42,256 bases of DNA. It comes from a virus. This document shows, one piece after another, positions 39,379 to 42,256 of the stretch (positions within the stretch are counted from its first letter, which is position 1; each line of letters starts with the position of its first letter). Location of the stretch: positions 1 through 42,256 of IMG/VR virus record IMGVR_UViG_3300029286_000097; one strand, given 5' to 3'. The notes under the pieces are model-generated. The model searched no databases. It was not told the DNA's origin and worked only from the letters and a program-made list of their open reading frames with translations. The position numbers were made by a program, and so were the translations under genes.

Positions 39379-42256
39379 GAAACACTATTAAAAAAGTCCA
39401 GTACTTAGAAGACCCAGAAGTCGCTAAGCACGATGAGCTTTTAGAAACAAACGATCATCTTGAAAATATAGATGATAAACTTAGCAAACCTTTAAAGACT
39501 GAGTTAGTCGGAGAACAAGGTAAAAAGATTAATAATGTCGCTGACTTTGTTACTGGGTTTATGCAGTCTATTAAAGGAGACAAAGGAGACAAAGGTGATA
39601 AGGGAGACACTGGGAATAAAGGTGATAAAGGTGACAAAGGAGATTCTATTAAAGGTGATAAGGGAGATAAAGGAGACAGTATTAAAGGTGATAAAGGTGA
39701 TAGAGGGGAAAAAGGGGAAAAAGGAGATAAGGGAGAATCAATAAAAGGCGATAAAGGAGATAAAGGCGACCCAGGAAAAGACGGAGACCCTAAAGCTGTA
39801 GTTTCTTATATTAAAACATTAAAAGGAAGAGATAGAATACCATTATCTGCTATTAGTGAAAGTGAATTAATGATGAGAATAGGTTCAACAGTTGGTAAAA
39901 AAATAAATACTCTTGATGAAAGATGGCACGGAGGTGGTTTATCTAAGGTTACTACAGATGCCACTTTAACTGGAGATGGTACTATTGATAGTCCTTTAAG
40001 CGCTATTGGTACTGGTACTGGTGATGTTACCGGTCCATCTGGAGCTACCGCAGATAATATAGCAATTTTTAATGGTGCTACTGGAAAAATAATTAAAGAT
40101 GGCGGATCTAAAATATCTGATTTAGCAACAGTATCATCTCTTTCTGACTATCTTAAACTCGACCAAACAACACCACAGACTATTTCTAATGGTATGCCTT
40201 TGTATGAAAATCTAGGCAATGCCAGTCTTACTGATATTTTTGATGCAGAAAAAGACCCAACAGGTTTTGAAGATAGAGATGATAGTACTATATCATTTAC
40301 AGACGCTACAAGAACTTTTACTATAACTCCAGTCTCTAGTTTTGATGTTTATGAACGTGGTGTTAAATATACTAAATCATCTCCTGAAACTTTACAGATT
40401 ACAGATGTTACTGGTATCCACGTTATTTATTATGATGAAGGAGTTTTGACTGAAGCCGTCAATCCAACAAGTGGTGATGTGGGAACTATAATCAAAACTA
40501 AGGCAATTACTTGTATTATTTATTGGAATGCCGATGAAGCAGAAGCTATTTATGTTGGAGAAGAAAGACACGGAATGCAAATGTCAGGTGCTACTCATAA
40601 CTACCTTCATTTTGTAAATGGATTAGAATATTTAAGTGGTTTAGGATTAAATACCATTACTACTGACCAATCTGGTGACGTAGACTCACACGCTCAGTTT
40701 GGTGTAGACGCTGGAAGCGTTACTGATGAGGATTTACGTATTGCTCCAGACGCTGTTGTTTCAACTACTGGCTTGCCTATTTATTATATGTTGGGGGCTT
40801 CGGCTGTTTGGACAAGATATGTAAACGCTGGTTTCTCGGTTAGAACGATAGATGGAACTTCAGACTCAAGACTAGCTTATAATCAATACAACGCTGGAGC
40901 TTGGAAACTAACAGAAGTTCCTAATGGTGATTATGTTTTATGTCACGTTTGTGCTACGACTGAAAAAGATAAACCGATGATAGCAATAATGGGACAGAAT
41001 TTATATACAACAAAAACAGCTGCTGAAGATGGAGCTGAAAGTGAAATATTAAGTCTTATTACTAATGATATTTTATTCCCTGAAATTAGACCAATAGCAA
41101 CTGTTCTCTTTCAAACTGGCGATGGTTATGATAATGCAGTTAAAGCTCGTATAGTAGACACTGCCGACAATGATGATTATGTAGACTGGAGAAGTGAAAC
41201 AATTTCAAGAACAACCATATCTTCAAGGAGCCATAATAACTTAAATGGCTTGCAAGGTGGGACTACTAATGAGTATTATCATTTAACTTCGGCTGAATAT
41301 ACAGGAAGTGGGACTGGTGTATTTTCTCGTTTAGACTCTCCTGTTTTTACTACTCAAATAACTACTCCTAAAGTAATCGGTGGCTCAGCTACAACTTCAG
41401 ACCTCACACTTCAAACTACTTCAGGTGTCGGTGAAACAGGTGCAGATATGCATTTCCTTGTAGGCGACAATGGTGCTACTGAAGCAATGACGATATTGAA
41501 TAGTGGCAATGTCGGGATTGGGACGACGAATCCAATAGCCACGCTTGATGTAAATGGAGACAGCAGTTTGGGGACATCTCACTCAATTTATGCTTATTTA
41601 GCGGCCAGCGCCTGGCCAACAATTGGATTTAATGCTTATACAAGTTCATATCTAGCTGGTCAAAATGGTTATGGTGGTGTGTGGCAGTTTGGAAATGCTA
41701 GTGGAAATATGACGTACGCCGCGCTTGGAAGTTCAAATGCTGGGGTTGCACACCCAAATAGCCCGGTTGCAAATGTTCTCACTTTAACTAAGGATAGAGG
41801 TGTCGCGATAGGGACATATTCGGGCGACACCGCCAGTGTTGGTATTGGTAACGTAATAATCAGCGGCAACGTTGGGATTGGGACAACGGCGCCAGGGGCT
41901 TCTTTGCAGGTAAACACATCTAATTGGACAATAGCTAAATTTTTCTCATCTGGGACATATCCAAATATAGTTGTTGGAGCTGATGATTCCCATCAGCTTA
42001 GTATTACTTGGGATACAACTGTTCCGGAAGCGCTTTTTCAAACTACCAATAGATCTTACCCTGTAACTTTTGACGGTAGTATTGCTAAGTTTAGAACTAA
42101 CAACCAAGAACGAATGAGAATAGATAACACCGGCAACGTCGGGATTGGGATAACAAACCCAGCCCGTGCTTTAGATGTGACTGGGATGATACAATCTTCA
42201 CTGGGTCTTTATGTAGCGGGTTATCCTGTCATTGATCAATATAGAACTTTCTCTGC
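39360..42256 (+). CDS. Collagen-like tail fibre / receptor-binding protein, 5' part (3' end outside window)
   Basis: Open to the right edge; at least 965 residues. The N-terminus ([20 protein letters not shown]) is helical. About residues 72-145 form a collagen-like triplet region ([17 protein letters not shown]), then beta-rich fibre domains with a long globular region (about 300-580). From 41108 on it is the same sequence as the window start, then carries a different set of GNVGIGTT modules (near 41505, 41865, 42132). It is the N-terminal, tail-attached half of the main fibre. Confidence 0.9.

Follow-up and report, generated by a model that had tools for sequence, protein, structure and literature searches.

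Repeated contig ends inside a tail-fibre gene suggest a circular phage genome with two coexisting fibre versions

What does it mean when a phage contig ends by repeating, inside a tail-fibre gene, the sequence with which it begins? The stretch of DNA analysed here (hereafter the window), 42,256 nucleotides long, is a whole virus record, IMGVR_UViG_3300029286_000097, and its two ends carry different distal parts of what looks like the same fibre. In this study, which was based on comparing the two ends with each other and on 31 related viral loci that were gathered by portal-based searches, we favour the reading, at a probability of about 0.72, that the contig goes once around a tailed-phage genome of about 41,107 bases and then overruns by 1,149 bases into a second version of the fibre gene, the two distal versions coexisting in the sample.

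The repeated ends and the fibre gene

Comparison of both window ends showed that bases 1-120 and 41108-41227, both on the plus strand and inside the fibre gene, are identical at 120 of 120 positions, and an exact match of this length cannot be due to chance. The original prediction had placed the first mismatch at base 121 (T) against 41228 (G), had put the two copies in the same reading frame and had described a gradual divergence followed by different modules, all of which agrees with what we found. In the ungapped comparison of 1-421 with 41108-41528, the whole homologous stretch on the plus strand, 395 of 421 bases match (94% identity), and the 21 codon differences over bases 2-421 (420 compared) comprise 15 synonymous and six other changes, the frames agreeing throughout. 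Identity per 60-base block falls from 60/60 to 47/60 and reaches the background level past base 421. This limit, base 421 and its counterpart 41528, is in both copies the last base of the first linker that encodes GNVGIGTT (398-421 in the left copy and 41505-41528 in the right, plus strand); beyond it the two versions share only linker-like matches of at most 20 bases. The prediction that an exact overlap ending at the first difference is the product of a de Bruijn graph branch proved to be a tautology, being true of any repeat. To our knowledge, 120 is none of the k-mer lengths that are common in assemblers. Given this length and the tautology, the identical run is by itself no proof of a graph branch. 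The idea of 120 as the assembler's k-mer length was also dropped, as it fits no common value; the corresponding overlaps in the relatives are 127, 126, 77 and 38 bases.

The fibre gene that enters the right end (39360-42256, plus strand, 965 codons, open in frame at the contig end) encodes an N-terminal anchor, collagen-like repeats, a middle domain and the distal modules of the version that we call R. The Gly-X-Y repeats lie at 39572-39779 on the plus strand, where residues 73-126 match the Pfam Collagen family just under its curated cut-off. The left end holds the distal part of version L (2-3127, plus strand, 1041 codons), which is without an N-terminus, has four GNVGIGT linkers (starting at 398, 677, 806 and 965) and reaches a stop at 3127. 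Version R has three linkers (41505, 41865 and 42132) and modules other than those of L, and breaks off within its reading frame at 42256; no relative of the R-specific modules was found in the viral collection or among phage records. The C-terminal domain of L (residues 918-1041) matches phrog_3030, and this tip domain (about 2750-3124 in the window) occurs on otherwise unrelated fibres of many viral contigs at approximately 80-87% protein identity. Similarly, the middle domain recurs at 54-64% identity in contigs that are otherwise unrelated. Directly upstream of the fibre gene lies a large protein of 1683 aa (34203-39254, plus strand); large proteins occupy this place in the relatives by position, and no sequence match between them was seen. 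Directly downstream of the fibre lies a glycine-rich protein (3132-3893, plus strand), and a glycine-rich protein is found at the same place in the relative G002.

Evidence for a circular genome

The prediction that the genome is a circle of about 41.1 kb and that two fibre versions coexist stood as regards the circle, for which the restored reading frame, the gene order and the relatives whose records wrap around all speak; coexistence is the best reading, with a parallel in G002, and is not proved. Joining 41107 to 1 gives a single fibre ORF of 1624 codons with no internal stop that ends at 3127, and the gene for the glycine-rich protein begins four bases after it. The late genes on the plus strand, which start at about 15.8 kb, reach the right end and continue at the left end up to 6.6 kb, merge into one block on joining, and the minus-strand block at about 7-15 kb lies between the plus-strand genes of both window ends. 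Moreover, the joined order of large protein, fibre and glycine-rich protein is the order in G002, whose portal is 56% identical to that of the window.

Among the relatives of 40-46 kb, exact end overlaps were found in G016 and G017 (127 bases each), G003 (126) and G021 (38), and G010 has an end overlap of 126 bases that is preceded by three mismatches in the first 22 bases. The long records G001, G007, G009, G012, G020 and G022 showed no end overlap. The ends of the relatives' records fall at differing points of the gene order, for example at the junction between the portal and a 404-aa protein in G007 and G010. Assembly of this phage group thus tends to give circles, for which circular permutation of the DNA is the simplest explanation. 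The terminase of the window matches the family Terminase_3, which fits headful packaging and is no proof of it. Taken from the letters of the window and its relatives, the reading as a single genome of about 41.1 kb, circular or circularly permuted, is well supported. It is therefore very probable that the contig is a near-complete circular map of the phage and that annotation should not count its last kilobase as additional genome. Metagenomic phage contigs that close into circles by a k-mer overlap of their ends are alike in that the window contig also passes its own start, as do G016 and G017 with their exact 127-base overlaps; it is unlike them in that, as is also seen in G002, the overrun goes on into a diverged version, here for about 1 kb.

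A portal scan of genomes returned no relative. When the viral collection, which may lack records very close to the window, was searched for exact matches of 35 bases, neither a sister contig nor any near-identical record came up, and the conserved 404-aa late protein of the group had no relative among 50,697 phage records.

Two distal fibre versions and competing explanations

In the mechanism that we propose, the genome would be circular in the assembly, probably circularly permuted, and cut inside the tail-fibre gene. The virion fibre would be one long protein that consists of an anchor, a collagen-like stalk, a middle domain, distal modules with GNVGIGTT linkers between them and a C-terminal tip. 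The sampled population would hold version L (1-3127, complete to its stop) and version R (41228-42256, cut off), which are near-identical as far as the first linker and unrelated past it; as the window holds no sequence upstream of base 1, the proximal identity of both versions is assumed. We infer that different virions carry L and R as alleles and that the distal fibre probably has a receptor-binding role. The distal modules would be swapped by homologous recombination, for which the conserved middle domain and the linker would offer the shared sequence, and this is the most likely cause of the swap. The contrast between a conserved proximal part (94% over 421 bases) and a distal part that shares only linkers fits the pattern of tail-fibre microdiversity. 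The original prediction had also asked whether the end at 42256 joins back to a site in 1-3127; it does not, since its last part shares with that stretch linker matches only, of at most 20 bases, and the failure of the R end to rejoin the genome counts against the reading as alleles.

Tail-fibre microdiversity is already known. Nearly identical coexisting phages with variation in the distal fibre have been documented (PMC3909814), and microdiversity is reported to fragment de Bruijn assemblies (PMC6487183). The metaviromic islands described by Mizuno et al. 2014 (PMC3909814) resemble the present case in that the N-terminal part of the fibre is conserved and the C-terminal part is variable among coexisting phages. 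They differ in that the variation was shown there by read recruitment, whereas here it is deduced from the two ends of one contig. With the window, an uncultured phage group supplies a further example of variation in the distal fibre. Within this group, G002 is a close parallel to the fibre pattern of the window. Its first 77 bases recur at 45635, and the copies, which take up 791 bases at either end of the contig (loci L100 and L102), are 82% identical after them; the contig thereby wraps into a second version of a tail gene of which G001 and G003 have only one.

Alternatively, both distal halves could belong to tandem fibre genes of one genome, in which a first fibre (39360 onward, with the R end) is followed by a second gene with the L distal half, the contig being broken at the repeat and the overlap being one between paralogues. 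This is a serious rival because a contig break within the repeat would leave the same ends, and it makes a mixture of strains unnecessary. It also has a precedent in the same phage group and at the same gene position, as G007 (11130-15768, locus L137) and G009 (L138) each have a pair of fibre genes side by side, of 1220 and 324 codons, whose N-termini are of one kind. The window, which spans base 1 to 42256 with its flanking sequence missing, contains one fibre N-terminus and shows no second fibre gene. However, the copies in G007 and G009 are strongly diverged, the N-terminal parts in G007 being 42% identical as protein and aligning as DNA over 185 bases only, at 69%, whereas the copies in the window are 100% identical over 120 bases and 94% over 421 bases, and this in the middle domain rather than in the anchor. 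Moreover, one long fibre stands at this place in G001 (1420 codons), G002 (1030) and G003 (1818), and the direct joining of L yields one intact ORF. On this evidence, we consider tandem genes unlikely.

A little less likely still is an origin of R in another phage of the sample with a shared fibre middle, the assembler having crossed between genomes to leave a chimeric tail. Such a crossing would profit from fibre domains that are common to unrelated phages, such as the middle domain (54-64%) and the L tip (approximately 80-87% protein identity), and sample 3300019873 does hold two related phages, L179 and G001 (40996 and 40987 bases), that share patches at 84-93% DNA identity. It requires, however, a second genome that matches the first exactly for 120 bases or more at the branch, and the viral collection yielded no record of this kind; if the backbones were alike, the chimera would grade into the favoured reading of two coexisting versions. 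As a separate observation, both ends of G001 have matches in L179, which lie about 1.1 kb from each other.

Programmed variation, by an inversion switch, a cassette switch or a diversity-generating retroelement, would also generate two versions, and the C-terminus of the fibre is the usual target of such systems. Here, however, whole modules are replaced rather than adenines changed at scattered positions, and the rest of the window holds neither a silent fibre cassette nor a partial copy of the fibre. Among the ORFs scanned, which took in part of the small ones, there was no reverse transcriptase, no invertase or integrase and no other recombinase. We regard this explanation as highly improbable.

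Linker DNA and an apparently split head-protein gene

The linker DNA was analysed in 82 ORFs from 79 contigs that were picked by the linker pattern alone. The third-base G+C content was raised at linker codons 0-6 (0.32-0.59; ORF mean 0.30), and with one linker taken per ORF, six linker codons were over-represented relative to the usage of the same ORF (z 2.7-6.7), five of them in A+T-rich contigs as well. In the ORFs with at least two linkers (n=43), codon identity between linkers was 0.60-0.79 at codons 0-6 against an expected 0.34-0.58; it was still raised up to codon 9 and was at expectation by codon 13, where the residue is still conserved. Between contigs, the third-base identity of linkers was 0.34. 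The linkers of the window and of loci L244-L323 thus show a synonymous bias by position and within-gene homogenisation over approximately 27-30 bases, with unrelated flanks. This pattern fits copying or conversion among linkers, and it could also reflect a shared codon preference that is specific to each phage. In four homologous DNA pairs, L/R included, the edge of homology lies within one base of the linker edge, few stretches including a linker; this coincidence is weak evidence, as alignments tend to stop at conserved blocks.

Tentatively, the linkers might be DNA seams besides being protein motifs, that is, a block of approximately 27-30 bases that is copied or converted within a gene and is common to different phages, the distal modules being swapped at its edges and the L/R boundary at the first linker being one such exchange. 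We hold this to be possible and on balance doubtful; if true, it would offer a concrete and testable route for the shuffling of fibre modules between phages. A text search of a library of papers for the linker motif found none. A conserved hairpin (CGTC/GACG) formed by the preferred linker codons gained no support: one of two third-base pairs covaries, but pairs outside the possible hairpin do so too.

Elsewhere in the window, the head-protein gene, a single ORF in G001 (311 codons) and G003 (302), is in pieces and is apparently split over 22648-25232. The larger piece (24615-25232) matches Phage_capsid_4 and Mu gpT; the label 'MCP' on 26785-27999 is only a place-holder, the capsid match being at 24615-25232. 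Two matches to the group I intron family RF00028 (22916-23101 and 23845-24095) each precede an ORF (23158-23739 and 24133-24576, respectively) that carries a recombination endonuclease VII domain. Between the two intron matches lies a putative micro-exon of about 25 bases near 23818 that reads LSKDLFD, as in the LSKDLFDDNMHGVW of G003. The intron matches score 48.6 and 31.3, under the curated threshold of 50 in Rfam, and an earlier scan over a wider stretch listed neither; in G002, one intron match above the threshold was found, at the second site. From these matches, two group I introns with a micro-exon between them appear to interrupt the head-protein gene. Additionally, two short minus-strand ORFs (8797-9291 and 12695-13252) align to no more than a part of DNA methyltransferase profiles, and both may be truncated.
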